NCBI GenBank assembly: GCA_020629715.1 | Contig: JAHDCU010000005.1 | Coordinates: 186,001 to 250,000, forward strand | DNA: 64,000 bases | Reading direction: 5' to 3' | DNA from: Saprospiraceae bacterium | GTDB taxonomy: Bacteria; Bacteroidota; Bacteroidia; Chitinophagales; Saprospiraceae | Shown: positions 38,261 through 46,898 of the stretch, in pieces | Layout: each line of letters opens with the position of its first letter | Numbering within the stretch: the first letter of the stretch is position 1 | Position numbers and translations under genes: made by a program | Notes under the pieces: generated by a model | The model's database searches: none | Seen by the model: the letters and a program-made list of their open reading frames with translations, nothing else | What the model was told of the DNA's origin: nothing

Positions 38261-40102
38261 ATGAAAAAGGAAATCAGATTAGCGCTGGTATATCGTGATA
38301 TGTGGCAGTCTTCGGGTAAATATGTACCTCGTGTCGATCAGCTTGTAAGAGTCGCTCAACCGATTATTGATATCGGTTGCTTTGCAAGAGTAGAGACTAA
38401 TGGTGGTGGTTTTGAGCAGGTAAATTTACTATTTGGAGAAAACCCAAATAAATCAGTTAGAGAATGGACGACTCCTTTCAATAATGCTGGTATACAAACT
38501 CAGATGCTAGAACGTGGACTCAATGGAATAAGAATGAGTCCTGTGCCAGCAGATGTAAGGCGACTGATGTTTAAGGTCAAAAAAAAACAAGGTACGGATA
38601 TCTCAAGATCATTCGATGGATTAAATAATCCTGCCAACTTAGCCAACTCCTTTAAATTTGCCAAAGAGGCTGGTATGATAGCGCAGGGAGCACTTAGTGT
38701 AACGCATTCTCCCGTGCATACGGTTGATTATTATATAGGTTTAGCGGATTCATATATAGATCTTGGAGCAGAAGAAATCTGTATAAAGGATATGGCGGGT
38801 ATCGGTAGGCCTGTATCTATAGGTAAAATTGTAGGTGGAATCCGCAAAAGACATCCTGATATTTTGATACAATATCATGGACACTCTACGACGGGTTTCT
38901 CGGTTGTAAGTTCTTTAGAAGCAGCTCGAAACGGTGCAGATATCATAGATGTGGGCATGGAACCGCTTTCATGGGGTACTGGTCATGCTGATTTGCTTAC
39001 CGTGCATGAGATGCTCAAAGATGCAGGTTTTATTTTACCTGATATTAATAATAAAGCATACATGGAAGTGCGATCTTTGAGTCAAGAATTTATCGATGAT
39101 TTTCTAGGAGAATATATCAATCCTCGCAATAGGTTTATGAATTCACTGCTCATTGGACCAGGACTACCAGGAGGTATGATGGGTAGCTTGATGGCTGATC
39201 TCGAAAAAAATCTATCTAGTCTCAATAAGTGGCTTGTCAAAAGAGACAAAGCTCCTATGACTCAAGAGCAATTATTGATTAAGTTGTTTGAGGAGGTAGA
39301 GTATGCATGGCCAAGATTAGGTTATCCGCCTCTAGTAACCCCATTTAGCCAATATGTGAAAAATGTATCTCTCATGAATGCGCTTCAAACCATCAAGGGT
39401 AAAGAACGCTGGAGTATGATAGATGAGAATACTTGGGGAATGATACTTGGTCGATCTGGTCAATTGCTAGGTGAATTGGGCGATGAGATCAAGGCATTGG
39501 CTGAGAAACAAAATCGAGAATATTATGAAGGAATTCCACAAGACCTTTATCCAGATGAGCTAGAAATATATAAGAAGAAGATGGATGAGAAAGGATGGGA
39601 TTATGGTCAGGATGATGAAGAGTTGATGGAGTATGCTATGCATCCACAGCAGTACGAAACCTTCAAAAGTGGAGAAGCTAAAATTAATTTTACTAAAGAT
39701 TTAGAAGCGAGAAGAACTGCAAAACTTGCGAAAAGTGATGCCCATCTGCCTTCAGAAATTTTTGTGGAATTAGAAGGGAAAAAATATAAAGTTACCGTCG
39801 ACAACGGTGATAAAAATGAGACTTCTTCTAAGGATACAAAGACTCCGATATCAACTAGTCCATCGGGCGAGGAAAAATTTGTGGTTGCTCCATTGGAAGG
39901 TAAGTTTTATGCCACAAAAGATAACTCCGACAAGCCTGTTCAGGTAGGTGACAAAGTAGAAATAGGAGATACTATAGGTTACATTGAAGCCATGAAAGTG
40001 ATCAATGCTATCAAAAGTGATGTGTCGGGTACCATATTAGAAATATACCCTAATCATGGAGATGAAATTGAAGAAGATGATCAAATCATAAAACTAAACT
40101 AG
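38261..40102 (+). CDS. Biotin-dependent decarboxylase alpha subunit (carboxyltransferase + biotin carrier)
   Basis: Transfers CO2 from a carboxylated substrate to biotin before the membrane subunit couples its release to sodium export. The carboxyltransferase TIM barrel starts with YRDMWQSSGKY (Asp13), unlike the classic TLRDAHQS. The active-site lysine fits Lys176 (CIKDMAG), and metal ligands fit His206 and His208 (YHGHSTTG). A hinge rich in Ser/Thr/Lys (about 510-540) leads to the biotin domain with Lys579 in EAMKV, 34 residues from the C-terminus as expected. Oxaloacetate is the default substrate; methylmalonyl-CoA or another acid cannot be excluded. Confidence 0.88.
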   Translation: MKKEIRLALVYRDMWQSSGKYVPRVDQLVRVAQPIIDIGCFARVETNGGGFEQVNLLFGENPNKSVREWTTPFNNAGIQTQMLERGLNGIRMSPVPADVRRLMFKVKKKQGTDISRSFDGLNNPANLANSFKFAKEAGMIAQGALSVTHSPVHTVDYYIGLADSYIDLGAEEICIKDMAGIGRPVSIGKIVGGIRKRHPDILIQYHGHSTTGFSVVSSLEAARNGADIIDVGMEPLSWGTGHADLLTVHEMLKDAGFILPDINNKAYMEVRSLSQEFIDDFLGEYINPRNRFMNSLLIGPGLPGGMMGSLMADLEKNLSSLNKWLVKRDKAPMTQEQLLIKLFEEVEYAWPRLGYPPLVTPFSQYVKNVSLMNALQTIKGKERWSMIDENTWGMILGRSGQLLGELGDEIKALAEKQNREYYEGIPQDLYPDELEIYKKKMDEKGWDYGQDDEELMEYAMHPQQYETFKSGEAKINFTKDLEARRTAKLAKSDAHLPSEIFVELEGKKYKVTVDNGDKNETSSKDTKTPISTSPSGEEKFVVAPLEGKFYATKDNSDKPVQVGDKVEIGDTIGYIEAMKVINAIKSDVSGTILEIYPNHGDEIEEDDQIIKLN

Positions 40103-41307
40103 TGGAGATCCTACACAAGTTATATGAAATGACAGCCTTTGGTGATCTGTGGAGTCAACCATTGACTTTATTAATGATCATGGTAGCATGTATTTTACTC
40201 TATTTAGGGATATACAAAAAGTTTGAGCCATTACTGTTAGTTCCGATAGCTTTTGGGGTATTACTTGCCAATTTACCCGGTGGTAATATGAGTGTTACAC
40301 CTGCTGAAGAAATTGCGAACCTTTCAAGCATGAGTATTGTCACGATTGCAAAGGAGCATGGCATTATGAATATGCTTTACTATCTATTAATCAAGACAGG
40401 TTTATTACCTCCATTGATTTTTATGGGAGTCGGGGCAATGACTGATTTTGGACCTATGCTACGTAATCTTAGATTAGCATTTTTTGGCGCTGCGGCACAG
40501 ATAGGGATTTTTACAGTGATGATTACAGCCGTACTGTTTGGATTTACATTGCAACAAGCTGGAGCATTAGGTATCATCGGTGGAGCGGATGGTCCCACGG
40601 CTATTTTTACAGCTATCAAGCTAGCGCCAGAGTTATTAGGACCTATTGCCATAGCTGCTTATTCTTATATGGCTTTGGTTCCAGTTATCATCCCTTTTGT
40701 AGTTAAGTTTAGCATGACTAAAAAAGAATTGCTTATCAATATGAAGCAACAGGATCGGGAGTTTCCTAATAAGTTAGAAATCAAGAATATAAAAACACTC
40801 AAGATCATATTCCCGATAGCACTGATTATTGTAGTTGCTCTATTAGTACCAAGTTCTGTTCCATTGGTGGGGCTTTTACTATTTGGTAATTTGGTCAAAG
40901 AGATAGGATCTGACACCAATAGATTATTTGAAGCGGCATCTAGCACCATTATGAATACTGCCACAGTGTTTTTAGGTCTTACCGTAGGGGCTACCATGAC
41001 CGCTTCTTCATTTCTCAACTTGCAGACACTCATGATCATCGGTGGTGGATTGATAGCATTTATTATTTCAATACTAGGAGGAATAGTTGCCGTAAAAATC
41101 TATAACCTTTTCGCCAAAAAGAAAATCAATCCTTTAATCGGTGCTACTGGCCTTAGTGCCGTACCTATGGCGTCTCGTGTAGCTAATGATATTGCATTAA
41201 AACATGATCCCACTAATCATATTTTGCAGTATGCTATGTCTAGTAATATCTCTGGAGTGATCGGTTCGGCGGTAGCAGCAGGTGTATTGATCTCATTTTT
41301 AGCTTAG
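40102..41307 (+). CDS. oadB: Sodium-pumping decarboxylase beta subunit (OadB)
   Basis: Integral membrane subunit that decarboxylates carboxybiotin while exporting sodium. About ten hydrophobic helices are seen, with the hallmarks PPLIFMGVGAMTDFGP, GGADGPTAIFTA and GATGLSAVPMASRVAND. The Asp in GADGPTAIF is the known sodium-site residue. At 401 residues it is full length. A GTG at 40102 overlaps the alpha stop by 1 base; an ATG at 40129 would lose little and is also possible. With alpha and gamma this is a complete pump, so an anaplerotic or energy-conserving use of dicarboxylates linked to a sodium gradient is expected. Confidence 0.95.
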   Translation: MEILHKLYEMTAFGDLWSQPLTLLMIMVACILLYLGIYKKFEPLLLVPIAFGVLLANLPGGNMSVTPAEEIANLSSMSIVTIAKEHGIMNMLYYLLIKTGLLPPLIFMGVGAMTDFGPMLRNLRLAFFGAAAQIGIFTVMITAVLFGFTLQQAGALGIIGGADGPTAIFTAIKLAPELLGPIAIAAYSYMALVPVIIPFVVKFSMTKKELLINMKQQDREFPNKLEIKNIKTLKIIFPIALIIVVALLVPSSVPLVGLLLFGNLVKEIGSDTNRLFEAASSTIMNTATVFLGLTVGATMTASSFLNLQTLMIIGGGLIAFIISILGGIVAVKIYNLFAKKKINPLIGATGLSAVPMASRVANDIALKHDPTNHILQYAMSSNISGVIGSAVAAGVLISFLA

Positions 41308-41448: not shown

Positions 41449-41481
41449 AGAAGCTATCGGTTTGGTAGCTTCTTTTTTTTT
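41449..41481 (+). terminator. Rho-independent terminator downstream of oadB
   Basis: Perfect 8-bp stem AGAAGCTA (41449-41456) and TAGCTTCT (41466-41473) with a 9-base loop, followed by a run of T to 41481. It lies about 140 bases after the oadB stop and 49 bases before the glycosyltransferase gene. The stretch between the oadB stop and this hairpin holds no reading frame, so it could be a long 3' UTR or a small RNA. Confidence 0.85.
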
Positions 41482-41530: not shown

Positions 41531-42403
41531 ATGAAGGTATGTGGCTTTAGTTTTATTAGAAATGCGATCAAGTATGATTATCCTATACGTGAGGCCTTAC
41601 TTTCGATAGCGCCGTTATGCGATAAGATATTTGTTGCGGTGGGGCAATCTGAAGATGAAACCATGTCTTACATCGAAAAACTACTACCTGAAAAGATAAT
41701 TATACTTCCGACCATATGGAACGATGATTTGAGGGAGGGAGGTCGTGTATTGGCTCTAGAGACTAATAAAGCATATCAATCGTTAGAAGGAAAATTCGAT
41801 TGGTGTATTTACATCCAAGGAGATGAAGTTATACACGAAAAAGATTATCAAGAGATCCAAGCGTCGATGAGTCGTTTTCAAAACATGGATGTGGTCGAAG
41901 GTTTGCTTTTTAAATACAAACATTTCTATGGTAGTTATGATTACGTTGCTACCTCTTCTAATTGGTATAAAAATGAAATAAGGATAATCCGTCAGAACAA
42001 GAAAATAAGTTCTTACAAAGATGCACAAGGTTTCAGATGGACTGACGATCGTAAATTAAACGTCAAAGCAATAAACGCGTCTATATATCATTATGGATGG
42101 GTGAAACCGCCAAAAGCGATGCAGGATAAGCAAAAATCATTTAATAAATATTGGCATGATGATCAATGGATTGATCGAGTGGTAGGTCAAGCCGAGGATT
42201 TTGACTATTCACAGATTGATAGACTTCAGAGGTTTGAAGATTCACATCCAAAAGTGATGAAAGACCGTATATCTGCACAGAACTGGAAATTCGATTATGA
42301 TATAAGTATGAATAAAACCAATTTTAAGCAAAGAGTGAAGGATTGGTCTCGAAAGGCTCTAGGGATCGAATTTGGTGAGTATAAAAATTATAAATTGATA
42401 TAA
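41531..42403 (+). CDS. Family 2-type glycosyltransferase
   Basis: A 290-residue GT-A-like protein. The N-terminus carries CGFSFIRNAIKYDYPIREAL and KIFVAVGQSEDET, then REGGRVLALETNKA. WCIYIQGDEVIHEKDY supplies an acidic metal/nucleotide motif (QGDE in place of DxD). A His-rich part (YHYGWVKPPKAMQDKQK) follows and the C-terminus is basic. There is no signal or membrane helix, so it is probably cytoplasmic, using a nucleotide sugar. Acceptor unknown. It is directly followed, with no gap, by the thioredoxin gene; the shared transcript with a secreted copper enzyme is unexplained. Confidence 0.82.
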   Translation: MKVCGFSFIRNAIKYDYPIREALLSIAPLCDKIFVAVGQSEDETMSYIEKLLPEKIIILPTIWNDDLREGGRVLALETNKAYQSLEGKFDWCIYIQGDEVIHEKDYQEIQASMSRFQNMDVVEGLLFKYKHFYGSYDYVATSSNWYKNEIRIIRQNKKISSYKDAQGFRWTDDRKLNVKAINASIYHYGWVKPPKAMQDKQKSFNKYWHDDQWIDRVVGQAEDFDYSQIDRLQRFEDSHPKVMKDRISAQNWKFDYDISMNKTNFKQRVKDWSRKALGIEFGEYKNYKLI

Positions 42404-42940
42404 ATGAAAAGTAAAATACTCATTATCCTATCCTTGGTTATAAGTCAATTTTCTCTAGTAAAGGCACAGGAGATTGGTGATGCTTCGAAAGAGTATACGC
42501 TTTACATATTTTTATTGGATGAATGTATTATTTGCCAACAATATGCACCCTTGCTTAATTCTTACTTTGAATCTTACAAAGAAGATGTAGACTTCGTTGG
42601 AGTTTTTCCCAATTTTGCTTCTAAAAGAAAAGGGATTTCACAATTCAAGAAAAAATATAGTATCAATTATCCTCTGAGGACTGATCACTACAAACGCTTA
42701 GCATCAAAGTATAATGTCACCGTTACTCCCGAGGTGGTAATGGTTGATAATCAAAACGATCGAGTCGTCTATCAAGGTAGAATAGATAATGGTTATGTAA
42801 GAATAGGAAAAAAAAGAAGGGTAATAACGTCACATGAACTACAAAAAACCCTAGAGTCTGCCAGTCTAGGAATTTCTTCTTGGCCAAAGAGCACAGAAGC
42901 TATCGGATGCTTTATTAACTTTAACGAAAGAAATCACTGA
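42404..42940 (+). CDS. Periplasmic thioredoxin-fold protein
   Basis: A 178-residue exported thioredoxin-like protein. The signal peptide (about 1-22) is followed by the redox motif Cys41-Ile-Ile-Cys44 in LLDECIICQQYAP, the strand DVDFVGVFP and the cis-proline in VTVTPEVVMVD (Pro109). The RIDNGYVRIGKKRR segment near residue 128 is shared with AhpC/TSA-type proteins fused to copper monooxygenases in other phyla. It starts immediately after the glycosyltransferase stop and ends 2 bases before the cytochrome/monooxygenase gene, its likely partner, perhaps handling disulfides or copper delivery. Confidence 0.85.
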   Translation: MKSKILIILSLVISQFSLVKAQEIGDASKEYTLYIFLLDECIICQQYAPLLNSYFESYKEDVDFVGVFPNFASKRKGISQFKKKYSINYPLRTDHYKRLASKYNVTVTPEVVMVDNQNDRVVYQGRIDNGYVRIGKKRRVITSHELQKTLESASLGISSWPKSTEAIGCFINFNERNH

Positions 42941-42942
42941 TT

Positions 42943-44529
42943 ATGAGATATAAAATTATTGCTTTGATACTTTCAATAGTATCTTCTTCATGTCTAATAA
43001 TTGCACAGCCTACCTTCAGTAAAGATATAGCTCCGATTATTTATAATCAATGTACGGTATGTCATAGATCAGGTGAGATAGGCCCTATGTCGTTTACTTC
43101 GTATGATGAGGTCAAAAATTGGGCAAGTACTATAAAGTATGTTACAAGCATTAAATATATGCCGCCTTGGAAGGCAGATCCAGAGTATTCCAATTTTTTA
43201 GGAGAGAACTACTTAACTGATGAGCAAATCGAACTGATCAAACAATGGGCTGATGCTGGAGCACCACAAGGAGATGTTTCTGATGAGCCGCCTTTGCCAG
43301 ATTTTCCCTCGGGATCACTGCTAGGAGAACCTGATTTGGTCTTAGAAATGGAAGAAGCGTGGCTGCATAGAGGTGATAATAAAGATGAGTACAGGTATTT
43401 CGTCATACCTACGGGTCTTACCGAGGATAAGGTGGTAAAAGCTATAGAGCTCAGGCCGGGCAACCCTAAAATCGTTCACCATTGCTTGTTTTTTGAAGAC
43501 ATCACAGGAGAAGCCGCAGCCAATGATGCAGCTACTCCAGAATATGGATTTGATGGATTCGGTAGTTTCACTAGCGACCAAACAGCTGTATTAACGGCGA
43601 AGCAGTATCAGGGATATGTACCAGGACAGAAACCGAGATTTTATCAAGATGGGGTAGGACAAGTACTTAGCGCTGGATCAGATTTAGTATTACAGATGCA
43701 CTATGCTCCATGGTCTGTAGATGAATTAGATAAATCTACAATCAACATCTTTTTTGCAGATGAAAACGAAGATGTAGAGCGCTATGTAGAAAGCCATATT
43801 ATGGTGCCATTGGGCAATGTATTGATTAATGGGCCATTCTTTATTCCAGCTAACCAGACTCGATCATTTCATGGTATTTGGGATGTACCTTCGGATCTAA
43901 GTTTAGTGGGTATCGCTCCTCATATGCACTTATTGGGGACCGATTGGACAGTATATCTAGAATCTCCGGATGGAACTATTACGAATCTGATAAGTATCCC
44001 AGACTGGGATTTCAACTGGCAAGGATATTACAACTTCAATAGATATATCAAAGCTGAGCAGGGAAGTAAAATTCATGCAATTGCCAGCTATGATAATACC
44101 TCAGAAAACCCAAATAATCCTAATAATCCTCCACAATGGACTTCATGGGGCGAGGGCACAGAAGATGAAATGTACTATTTACCAATTCTATATATTCCTT
44201 ATCAAAACGGAGATGAGGATATCATATTTGAAGATGTAAGTACATCCATAGATCATGTAGCATTTGATGAAGATAATGATCTAGCTCTGCTACCTAATCC
44301 TGCCGATGAACGGACTCGGTTAGAATTTGATTTACGCAGAGGGCAGTCGATTAGTGTTGGGATTTATGATATCCACGGAAAACTTGTAAGAATGGTACGA
44401 AATAATGAATTTTTTCCAAAGGGAAAGAACATCGTAAATTTGGCTATTTCAAGTCTTGAAAAAGGAATCTATTCTGTTTCGCTTATAACCAAAGATTATA
44501 TTAGGTCACAACAACTTGTGAAGAATTAA
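42943..44529 (+). CDS. Secreted cytochrome c-type copper (type II, ascorbate-dependent-like) monooxygenase with T9SS domain
   Basis: A 528-residue exported protein. After the signal peptide comes a c-type haem site Cys37-x-x-Cys40-His41 (CTVCH), with MPPW a likely Met-ligand region. The middle and C-terminal parts match peptidylglycine-hydroxylating (PHM) type monooxygenases, with all six copper ligands visible: His179 and His180 (VHHC), His253 (QMHY), His327 and His329 (PHMH) and Met410 (DEM). A T9SS sorting domain (LALLPNPADERTRLEF ... SSLEKGIYSVSLI) ends the chain. Enzyme activity is likely; the substrate (peptide, lipid, or other) is unknown. It forms an operon with the thioredoxin and glycosyltransferase genes. 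Confidence 0.85.
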   Translation: MRYKIIALILSIVSSSCLIIAQPTFSKDIAPIIYNQCTVCHRSGEIGPMSFTSYDEVKNWASTIKYVTSIKYMPPWKADPEYSNFLGENYLTDEQIELIKQWADAGAPQGDVSDEPPLPDFPSGSLLGEPDLVLEMEEAWLHRGDNKDEYRYFVIPTGLTEDKVVKAIELRPGNPKIVHHCLFFEDITGEAAANDAATPEYGFDGFGSFTSDQTAVLTAKQYQGYVPGQKPRFYQDGVGQVLSAGSDLVLQMHYAPWSVDELDKSTINIFFADENEDVERYVESHIMVPLGNVLINGPFFIPANQTRSFHGIWDVPSDLSLVGIAPHMHLLGTDWTVYLESPDGTITNLISIPDWDFNWQGYYNFNRYIKAEQGSKIHAIASYDNTSENPNNPNNPPQWTSWGEGTEDEMYYLPILYIPYQNGDEDIIFEDVSTSIDHVAFDEDNDLALLPNPADERTRLEFDLRRGQSISVGIYDIHGKLVRMVRNNEFFPKGKNIVNLAISSLEKGIYSVSLITKDYIRSQQLVKN

Positions 44530-44546
44530 TTACAGAAATTATACTT

Positions 44547-44583
44547 AATTTTGCGCCGCAATCCTCTCGTATATAGAGGATTG
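44547..44583 (+). promoter_or_regulatory. gapA promoter -7 element and leader hairpin
   Basis: TAATTTTG (44547-44554) fits TAnnTTTG; no good -33 box is found. Just downstream an inverted repeat, CAATCCTC then GAGGATTG (about 44560-44583), can form a hairpin in the leader, some 27 bases before the gapA ATG. The hairpin could affect mRNA stability. Confidence 0.45.
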
Positions 44584-44609
44584 TAACTTTCTTAACTAAC
44601 TATACAAAC

Positions 44610-45602
44610 ATGTCTAAAAAAAGAATTGCAATTAATGGATTTGGAAGAATAGGTCGTCTAACTTTCAGAAATCTATTTGCTAATGATGCAGTGGAAGTAG
44701 TAGCTATTAATGATCTTACAGATAATGCAACACTTGCTCACCTACTGAAATTTGATAGTGCTCACGGCAAGTTTAATCATAATGTTGAATCTACAGATAC
44801 TCACATTATCATTGATGGACATAAAATTGCTTCAACAGCTGAAAGAGATCCTTCTAAATTGGATTGGAAGTCTCAAAATATAGATGTAGTCATAGAATCT
44901 ACCGGATTTTTTAGAACAAAGGAAGCTGCAAGCAAGCATATCGATGCTGGGGCAAAAAAAGTATTGATTTCAGCTCCTGCAAAAGGAGAAGGAGTTGATA
45001 CCGTTGTGCTAGGTGTAAATGGAGAAAGTATCACAGATGATATGTGTATCATTTCAAATGCAAGTTGTACCACTAACTGCCTTGCACCAGTGGTGAAAAT
45101 TTTGGATGAAAACTGGGGTATAGAATACGGATCACTCACAACGACTCATGCTTATACTTCAGATCAAAGAATTCAGGATGCTCCACATAGTGATCTGAGA
45201 AGAGCACGAGCGGCAGCATATAATATCATACCTACTAGTACTGGAGCAGCAAGTGCGGTCGGAAAAGTATATCCAAATGTTGCGGGTAAATTATTCGCAA
45301 TTGCAGTAAGGGTACCTGTTATTACAGGTTCTATGATTGAACTTAATGTAGTATTAGACAAAGAAGTATCCAAGGAAGAAATCAATGCTAAATTTAAAGC
45401 GGCAGCAGATGGTCCTATGAAAGGTGTACTTGAGTACAGCACAGATCCATTAGTTTCTTCAGATATCGTAGGGAATAAGCACTCAAGTATATTTGATTCG
45501 TTGCTTACGGATGTAAAAGGTAAGATGGTGAAAGTTGTAAGTTGGTATGATAATGAGGCTGGATATTCAGCTCGTTTAGCAGATTTAGCAGCTTCAGTAT
45601 AA
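44610..45602 (+). CDS. gapA: Glyceraldehyde-3-phosphate dehydrogenase
   Basis: NAD-dependent glycolytic enzyme converting glyceraldehyde-3-phosphate to 1,3-bisphosphoglycerate. INGFGRIGRLTFRN is the nucleotide-binding start, SNASCTTNCLAP holds the catalytic Cys153, and TTTHAYTSDQRIQDAPH has the catalytic His. NIIPTSTGAASAVGKVYP and SWYDNEAGYSARL complete the family signature. At 330 residues it is a normal type I enzyme. It is followed by a terminator and then pgk, the next glycolytic step, which may still be read through. Confidence 0.97.
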   Translation: MSKKRIAINGFGRIGRLTFRNLFANDAVEVVAINDLTDNATLAHLLKFDSAHGKFNHNVESTDTHIIIDGHKIASTAERDPSKLDWKSQNIDVVIESTGFFRTKEAASKHIDAGAKKVLISAPAKGEGVDTVVLGVNGESITDDMCIISNASCTTNCLAPVVKILDENWGIEYGSLTTTHAYTSDQRIQDAPHSDLRRARAAAYNIIPTSTGAASAVGKVYPNVAGKLFAIAVRVPVITGSMIELNVVLDKEVSKEEINAKFKAAADGPMKGVLEYSTDPLVSSDIVGNKHSSIFDSLLTDVKGKMVKVVSWYDNEAGYSARLADLAASV

Positions 45603-45635
45603 TTTGAAAAGATAATTTTTATTAATGATATTAAG

Positions 45636-45671
45636 AGCCTTGTCGGATTATTATTCGATAAGGCTTTTTTT
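45636..45671 (+). terminator. Rho-independent terminator between gapA and pgk
   Basis: A 10-bp stem (AGCCTTGTCG at 45636-45645 with CGATAAGGCT at 45656-45665, one G-U pair) and 10-base loop, then seven T. It lies 33 bases after the gapA stop and only 16 before pgk, so pgk must rely on read-through or a promoter in this gap. Confidence 0.85.
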
Positions 45672-45686
45672 ATAATTGACCCCATT

Positions 45687-46898
45687 ATGTATTTAAAAGA
45701 ATTAAAACTGGATAAGAGAACTGTTTTGCTTCGTGTTGACTTTAATGTTCCTCTCAATGAAAACTATGAGATTACGGATGATACGCGGATGCGACGAGCT
45801 ATTCCAACGATTAAGCACTTACAAGACAAATCTTGTAAAATCATCATTATGTCTCACCTCGGGAGACCACAAAAGAAGCTAAATGATGATGGTACTCTCA
45901 ATGTTGAAAAATTTACCTTAAAACATTTAGTTGATCATCTAAGATCACTGACTGGTATGAATACAGCATTTTGTGACAGTCACGATGTAGACAAAATGAC
46001 TAGTGCTTCAAAGAATCTAAACTTTGGAGAAATATTGTTATTGGAAAACACAAGGTTTCATAAAGGAGAGACTAAGGGTGATGAATCCTTTGCCAAAGAT
46101 CTGTCTTCATTGGCTGATGTATTTGTTAATGATGCTTTTGGTACGGCACATAGAGCACATAGCAGTACTACTGTAGTGGCAAGATACTTTGATAAAACTC
46201 AAAAGTCTTTTGGTCTTCTTATGGAAGCAGAAATCGAAAACGCTAATCGAGTATTAAATGGTGCAGAGTCTCCTGTGACGGCTATTATTGGCGGAGCTAA
46301 AGTGAGTGATAAGATTCAACTAATAGAAAAACTATTGGATATTTCAGACAATATCATCATCGGTGGTGGTATGGCCTATACGTTCAAGAAGGCACTTGGT
46401 GGACAAGTAGGAAATTCTCTATGTGAAGATGATTATTTGGATTTGGCGAAAAGGCTAATAGAGAAGGCAGCGATAGCCAATACTAAAATATGGCTTCCAG
46501 AAGATTCTGTCGCAGCCGATGCATTTAGCAATGAAGCAAATATCAAAATAAAGCCTAGCGATGATATCGATAGTGGATGGATGGGGTTGGATATAGGACC
46601 GAAAGCTATAGAAGCATACAAGAAGGTAATATCATCGTCAAAAACAATCCTTTGGAATGGCCCTATGGGAGTATTTGAAATGTCTAACTATAGCAATGGA
46701 ACCTTTACAGTTGCTCGAGAGGTTGCCGATGCTACACAGCTGGGGGCATTTTCTTTGATAGGAGGCGGAGACTCAGTTGCGGCGATCAATAAAGCTAATC
46801 TTTCCGATAAAGTCAGCTATGTAAGCACCGGTGGTGGAGCCATGCTAGAATATCTAGAAGGGAAAATCCTACCAGGTATACAGGCTATCCTATCATAG
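45687..46898 (+). CDS. pgk: Phosphoglycerate kinase
   Basis: ATP-forming step after GAPDH. LLRVDFNVPLNENYEITDDTRMRRAIPTI-type N-terminus holds the substrate-binding segment, MSHLGRP follows, and LLENTRFHKGETKGDESFAK and VNDAFGTAHRAHSST are family hallmarks. IGGAKVSDKI and FSLIGGGDSVAAIN are the nucleotide-binding parts. At 403 residues it is full length. It ends 2 bases from the convergent SLBB gene stop. Confidence 0.97.
   Translation: MYLKELKLDKRTVLLRVDFNVPLNENYEITDDTRMRRAIPTIKHLQDKSCKIIIMSHLGRPQKKLNDDGTLNVEKFTLKHLVDHLRSLTGMNTAFCDSHDVDKMTSASKNLNFGEILLLENTRFHKGETKGDESFAKDLSSLADVFVNDAFGTAHRAHSSTTVVARYFDKTQKSFGLLMEAEIENANRVLNGAESPVTAIIGGAKVSDKIQLIEKLLDISDNIIIGGGMAYTFKKALGGQVGNSLCEDDYLDLAKRLIEKAAIANTKIWLPEDSVAADAFSNEANIKIKPSDDIDSGWMGLDIGPKAIEAYKKVISSSKTILWNGPMGVFEMSNYSNGTFTVAREVADATQLGAFSLIGGGDSVAAINKANLSDKVSYVSTGGGAMLEYLEGKILPGIQAILS

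Follow-up and report, generated by a model that had tools for sequence, protein, structure and literature searches.

Three consecutive open reading frames on the plus strand of a Saprospiraceae genome raise the question of which of their products work together, and at what. They lie at positions 41531-42403 (290 aa), 42404-42940 (178 aa) and 42943-44529 (528 aa) of the window, by which we mean the whole stretch of 64,000 nucleotides that was analysed; the sites described within these genes and the two hairpins are on the plus strand as well. The initial annotation had read them as an operon for a glycosyltransferase, a thioredoxin and a haem-copper monooxygenase with intergenic gaps of 0 and 2 bases, and the coordinates agree with this layout (0 bases between the glycosyltransferase and redoxin genes, 2 bases between the redoxin and copper genes). 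A terminator-like hairpin (11 pairs, loop of 3, T tail) at 41449..41473 ends the upstream unit and another terminator-like hairpin lies behind the copper gene at 44558..44584; the scan of the region found 4 such sites, compared with 1.8 expected. The genes on both sides look like units separate from the three-gene stretch. Upstream, at 38261-41307, are genes for the alpha/biotin and beta subunits of a sodium-pump-like oxaloacetate decarboxylase, named from the sequence, with the first hairpin between them and the glycosyltransferase gene. Downstream, gapA-pgk (44610-46898) is found 3' of the copper gene, as it is in three other loci (L032, L033 and L094, the last by length).

The third gene (42943..44529) encodes a protein with an N-terminal c-type haem domain, a dicopper module and a C-terminal T9SS type A tail. 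For the window protein Pfam alone is weak: PF03712 reaches 18.1 bits and stays below its cut-off of 23, and Cytochrome_CBB3 is below its cut-off as well. The assignment to PHM and DBH, the copper type II ascorbate-dependent monooxygenases, therefore rests on the family and on the model. PF03712 is matched by 35 of 41 homologues (E<=0.01), and a profile built from these 41 finds human DBH at 3.4e-8 and human PHM at 1.5e-7. In the profile alignments the HH, H and HxH ligands pair with both enzymes, and DEM with the Met ligand pairs with PHM, the Met ligand of DBH lying outside the aligned stretch. When the AlphaFold model (mean pLDDT 89.6) was compared with the PDB, the best 31 matches were all PHM or DBH (E from 7e-13, for PHM, to 2e-9), with TM-scores normalised to the PHM targets of about 0.58-0.67; by this comparison the protein has the two-domain PHM fold. 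Family profile, model and ligand conservation are three independent lines that point the same way, and the initial call of a PHM-type protein is a good one.

The metal ligands were followed through an alignment of 124 homologues. The haem-binding motif C37-T-V-C40-H41 (43051..43065) is present in 123 of 123 aligned homologues, and Met73 of M-P-P-W (43159..43161), probably the distal haem ligand, is a methionine in 124 of 124; together they would make the N-terminal part a mono-haem cytochrome c domain. Invariant in all 124 are also the predicted CuH ligands His179-His180 (43477..43482; PHM His107-His108, DBH His262-His263) and His253 (43699..43701; PHM His172, DBH His333), and His327-x-His329 (43921..43929; PHM His242/His244, DBH His412/His414), which would form CuM together with Met410 (44170..44172; PHM Met314, DBH Met487; 123 of 124, one gap). 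The DBH copper ligands are listed as His262/263/333 and His412/414/Met487 (PMC4846438). Three histidines at CuH and two histidines plus a methionine at CuM would be the ligand set of the PHM/DBH class. The six PHM-type ligands and the CxxCH site claimed initially are all at the positions given for them and essentially invariant. Fold, ligand order and spacing are shared with PHM and DBH, and so is the glutamine ahead of the third CuH histidine, Q251, kept in 106 of the 124 homologues. The protein differs from both enzymes by its additional haem domain and T9SS tail and by the lack of conserved structural cysteines; across the family the CxxCH cysteines are the only ones conserved. It also differs from PHM at the positions of PHM Arg240, Asn316 and Tyr318, which we take to be the anchors of the peptide carboxylate. 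Here they correspond to Ala325, Tyr412 and Pro414 and vary among the 124 homologues, so that a peptidylglycine substrate is unlikely and the protein is not PHM proper. Tandem copper-protein paralogues with no linked redoxin occur in two further loci (L045:7570-10904, L048:7586-10778).

Does the glycosyltransferase belong to the system? Its gene (41531..42403) had been counted as part of the operon, with glycan attachment to T9SS cargo as one idea for its role. The 290-aa product scores 16.5 against a Pfam cut-off of 27.5 and is thus sub-threshold; its model has a GT-A fold and matches the S-glycosyltransferase SunS (5e-10), TarS and SpsA. A working part in glycan attachment would be consistent with this confirmed fold and with the gaps to the redoxin gene, 0 bases in the window and 1 base in a sister species of the same genus (79% identical), which suggest translational coupling. 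However, the sister species is the only other place where the gene adjoins the pair. It is absent beside the pair at every locus outside the genus, and a conserved three-gene operon is rejected. Homologues occur in 22 of 61 genomes of relatives, at unrelated loci except in the sister species, no common neighbours and no tie to T9SS were seen around six homologue loci, and the enzyme would act in the cytoplasm. Because adjacency is limited to the genus and homologues lie at unrelated loci, the glycan idea finds no evidence, and we consider such a role very improbable. Since L033 and L094 lack the upstream glycosyltransferase and have gapA-pgk downstream, its arrival can be placed within the genus, and we regard the gene as a local insertion, probably a hitchhiker.

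The redoxin and copper genes are genuinely linked. In the 61 genomes of relatives, 34 with and 27 without the copper gene, the redoxin clade was defined at E<1e-35, with a clean gap to the paralogues (>1e-23); it gives best E values of 1e-67 to 1e-38 in 23 genomes, the next paralogues being at 1e-22 or weaker. In 20 of the 23 the redoxin adjoins the copper gene, the exceptions being G034, G033 and, at a contig end, G057. Of the 34 genomes that carry the copper gene 22 have the redoxin, compared with 1 of the 27 that lack it (Fisher p 5e-7, kinship uncorrected). Redoxin neighbours were called by six-frame HMM searches at 119 non-truncated copper loci, 80 named ones plus those of the relatives, the named set being biased towards the window's own clade: 71 have a split redoxin neighbour on the same strand, 7 a fused one and 41 no linked redoxin. 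Split pairs are found in Bacteroidota (Saprospiraceae, Hymenobacter, Spirosoma, Crocinitomicaceae, Chitinophaga), Latescibacterota and Verrucomicrobiota, with the redoxin mostly upstream and in four loci (L043, L122, L220, L224) downstream of the copper gene. On a tree of the 119 copper modules there are 9 changes of the redoxin label, compared with 40 in shuffles, and one clade of 25 lacks the redoxin, with every haem and copper ligand retained. When the phylum was sampled evenly, the copper protein occurred in 21 of 297 genomes, and the 17 loci fetched comprise 1 fused, 4 split and 12 without redoxin. The pair is thus characteristic of much of the copper-protein family, not of all its members.

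The initial annotation had pointed to thioredoxin-type domains fused in front of such modules in other phyla, and single chains with a redoxin domain ahead of the same haem/copper module indeed exist. They were found at L164-L171, in genomes holding Verrucomicrobiota and Latescibacterota loci, at L216, in a further genome from the Verrucomicrobiota sample, and at L215, in the window's own phylum, Bacteroidota; some fusion-bearing genomes have split forms as well. One could argue that the two genes are neighbours by chance or simple inheritance with no functional link, given the 41 of 119 loci without linked redoxin and the linked or fused redoxin in only 5 of the 17 loci of the even sample. 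Adjacency in three phyla and in two gene orders, co-occurrence and the fusions argue against this reading, which the fusions largely refute and which we find scarcely credible.

What kind of protein is the redoxin? The product of the second gene (42404..42940) had been labelled thioredoxin-type, which implies CxxC chemistry, yet the invariant pair of cysteines is a different one. Cys41 (42524..42526) is found in 69 of 69 split and 8 of 8 fused redoxins, and Cys169 in A-I-G-C-F-I (42908..42910) in 71 of 71 and 8 of 8, whereas Cys44 (42533..42535), the second cysteine of CIIC, is not conserved: the 69 split redoxins have Cys in 31, Ser in 30, Thr in 5 and Ala in 3 cases, and the eight fused ones have no cysteine here, always reading C-P-x-S/V and retaining the GC. 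Because Cys41 and Cys169 are invariant while the second CxxC cysteine is not, PRX-like two-cysteine redoxin is the better name. The closest solved structures are PDB 2cvb, 2ywi and 3u5r (E 1.7e-21), which we take to be a PRX-like group. They have the thioredoxin-fold region, the first cysteine (in C-P-x-V) and the cysteine of a C-terminal GC-x-I in common with the redoxin, which by this pattern falls into the group of 2cvb. It differs from them in its signal peptide, in its adjacency or fusion to the haem/copper module and, in the split forms, in its conserved G-K-R-R and Y-x-G-R-I-D-N segments. A classical thioredoxin can be dismissed, as CxxC is not conserved and TIGR01068 gives 18.3 against 96.8 bits, and so can a typical peroxiredoxin, the sequence read directly having no PxxxTxxC motif. 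Two further PRX-like redoxins, both from one genome, are unlinked to copper proteins (L173:4162-4719 and L174:4775-5380, with C-P-F-V / C-P-Y-A and GC-x-I). As these paralogues share the cysteine pair, the chemistry of the pair is not peculiar to partners of copper proteins.

The localisation of the two partners bears directly on their relation. Residues 451-528 of the copper protein (44293..44526) form the T9SS type A sorting domain noted at the outset, which passes both curated cut-offs (TIGR04183, 30.6 against 23 bits; PF18962, 36.7 against 27). A signal peptide can be read from the redoxin sequence, and Pfam and NCBIfam scans show no T9SS tail on the protein; contact with the enzyme is therefore expected in the periplasm and not outside the cell in this organism. 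A redox unit of which both proteins are secreted, as first envisaged, is unlikely here with the tail on the copper protein only. One clade is without the T9SS tail and has lipoprotein-type signals on both partners (L061 and L066 by scan; L047, L055 and L059 by scan and eye). The looser scan behind this is rough: it also flagged Cys17 of the window copper protein, where we read an ordinary signal peptide; the stricter regex misses Bacteroidota lipoboxes.

Taken together, our best reading is that of a two-gene unit in which a dicopper monooxygenase fed by a c-type haem would be serviced, before export, by a periplasmic two-cysteine redoxin; we hold it tentatively, at slightly below an even chance. 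PHM and DBH are known from animals, where ascorbate supplies their electrons. In the bacterial protein the N-terminal cytochrome domain would replace ascorbate as the entry point for electrons, which may then pass from haem to CuH and on to CuM, where O2 would be activated and a substrate, probably not a peptidylglycine, hydroxylated. The copper protein would acquire its haem and copper in the periplasm before the type IX system exports it, and Cys41/Cys169 of the redoxin would act on the haem/copper module ahead of this export. The likeliest task would be to maintain the cysteines of the haem site in the reduced state or to deliver Cu(I). Because CxxCH contains the partner's only conserved cysteines, haem attachment is the one process that could be the target of thiol exchange with a conserved site; a role of the redoxin in forming disulfides in the copper protein is ruled out on the same ground. 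Copper domains free of cysteine seemed to be commoner where a redoxin is linked (43 of 78 compared with 9 of 41, p 0.0008), an effect that was gone once kinship was allowed for.

Haem-site reduction has a parallel in the thiol-disulfide oxidoreductases ResA/CcmG of cytochrome c maturation: the best NCBIfam similarity of the redoxin is to ResA (NF002854, E 3.7e-7) and CxxCH is a plausible client. The redoxin differs from ResA in that it scores 30 bits against a cut-off of 170 and the second active-site cysteine is dispensable in its family. For Cu(I) delivery the SCO-type copper chaperones, periplasmic proteins of thioredoxin fold that have two cysteines and are found near a copper enzyme, offer an analogy only; the two invariant cysteines of the redoxin are 128 residues apart in sequence, unlike those of SCO, and no SCO family match was obtained in Pfam or NCBIfam scans.

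The fusions also suggest something else, namely that the redoxin is a partner in turnover whose Cys41/Cys169 dithiol passes electrons to the haem and on to the copper sites in place of ascorbate. Permanent fusion of a maturation factor to its client would be unusual, and turnover accounts better for single chains in which the redoxin is stably joined directly ahead of the haem domain, the invariant GC cysteine being 25-31 residues ahead of CxxCH in 10 of 10 fusions, as it does for the clade with shared lipoprotein-type signals, which point to a common compartment. However, the T9SS form should have its partners in separate locations after export, a dithiol gives up two electrons and usually reduces c-type haem poorly without a mediator, and the haem is kept in the redoxin-less clade, so that we consider a turnover role unlikely. 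Maturation satisfies the restriction of conserved partner cysteines to the haem site, the invariant cysteine pair without CxxC and the shared periplasm, and we prefer it with modest confidence. The copper proteins without redoxin (the clade of 25 and others) keep their ligands; for maturation the redoxin must then be dispensable or supplied from elsewhere. A third task would be protection, the redoxin removing H2O2 or repairing oxidative damage after uncoupled copper turnover like a peroxidase with two cysteines. Its nearest solved relatives are PRX-like and a first cysteine with a distant C-terminal one resembles a peroxidatic/resolving pair; the missing peroxiredoxin motif, and the fact that a soluble periplasmic protein would leave an exported enzyme unprotected, make this quite improbable.

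The copper type II monooxygenase class has been described as found in eukaryotes (PMC4846438). A search of the open-access literature, with subscription papers and preprints outside its scope, found no paper characterising such a haem-copper protein; as far as this literature goes the domains are known, and their combination, its spread and the split or fused partner are uncharacterised. It is tempting to speculate that these proteins form a class of bacterial dicopper monooxygenases that receive their electrons through haem and do without ascorbate, a prokaryotic branch of PHM/DBH with a separate source of electrons and with new substrates, whose module is fed or loaded by a dedicated two-cysteine PRX-like partner, split or fused, although we are inclined to doubt the proposal in this general form. 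If true, a branch that is widespread in bacteria, carries its own c-type haem and has a conserved redox partner would show that this copper chemistry can be driven by a different route. The split and fused pairs give a direct handle on the task of the partner.

Other genes accompany the copper gene at some loci. In two genomes of another family (L070:5170-12391, L066:2382-10745) the redoxin-copper pair is flanked on one side by ATP-grasp/amidotransferase/glutamate-cysteine-ligase-like genes and on the other by a gene resembling haem A synthase (CtaA), all named from their sequences. In three Flavobacteriales loci (L126:4677-5168, L134:7617-8111, L137:7614-8108) a protein of 163-164 aa with a T9SS-like tail is encoded directly 3' of the copper gene; at two of these loci its gene overlaps the stop codon of the copper gene by 4 bases.
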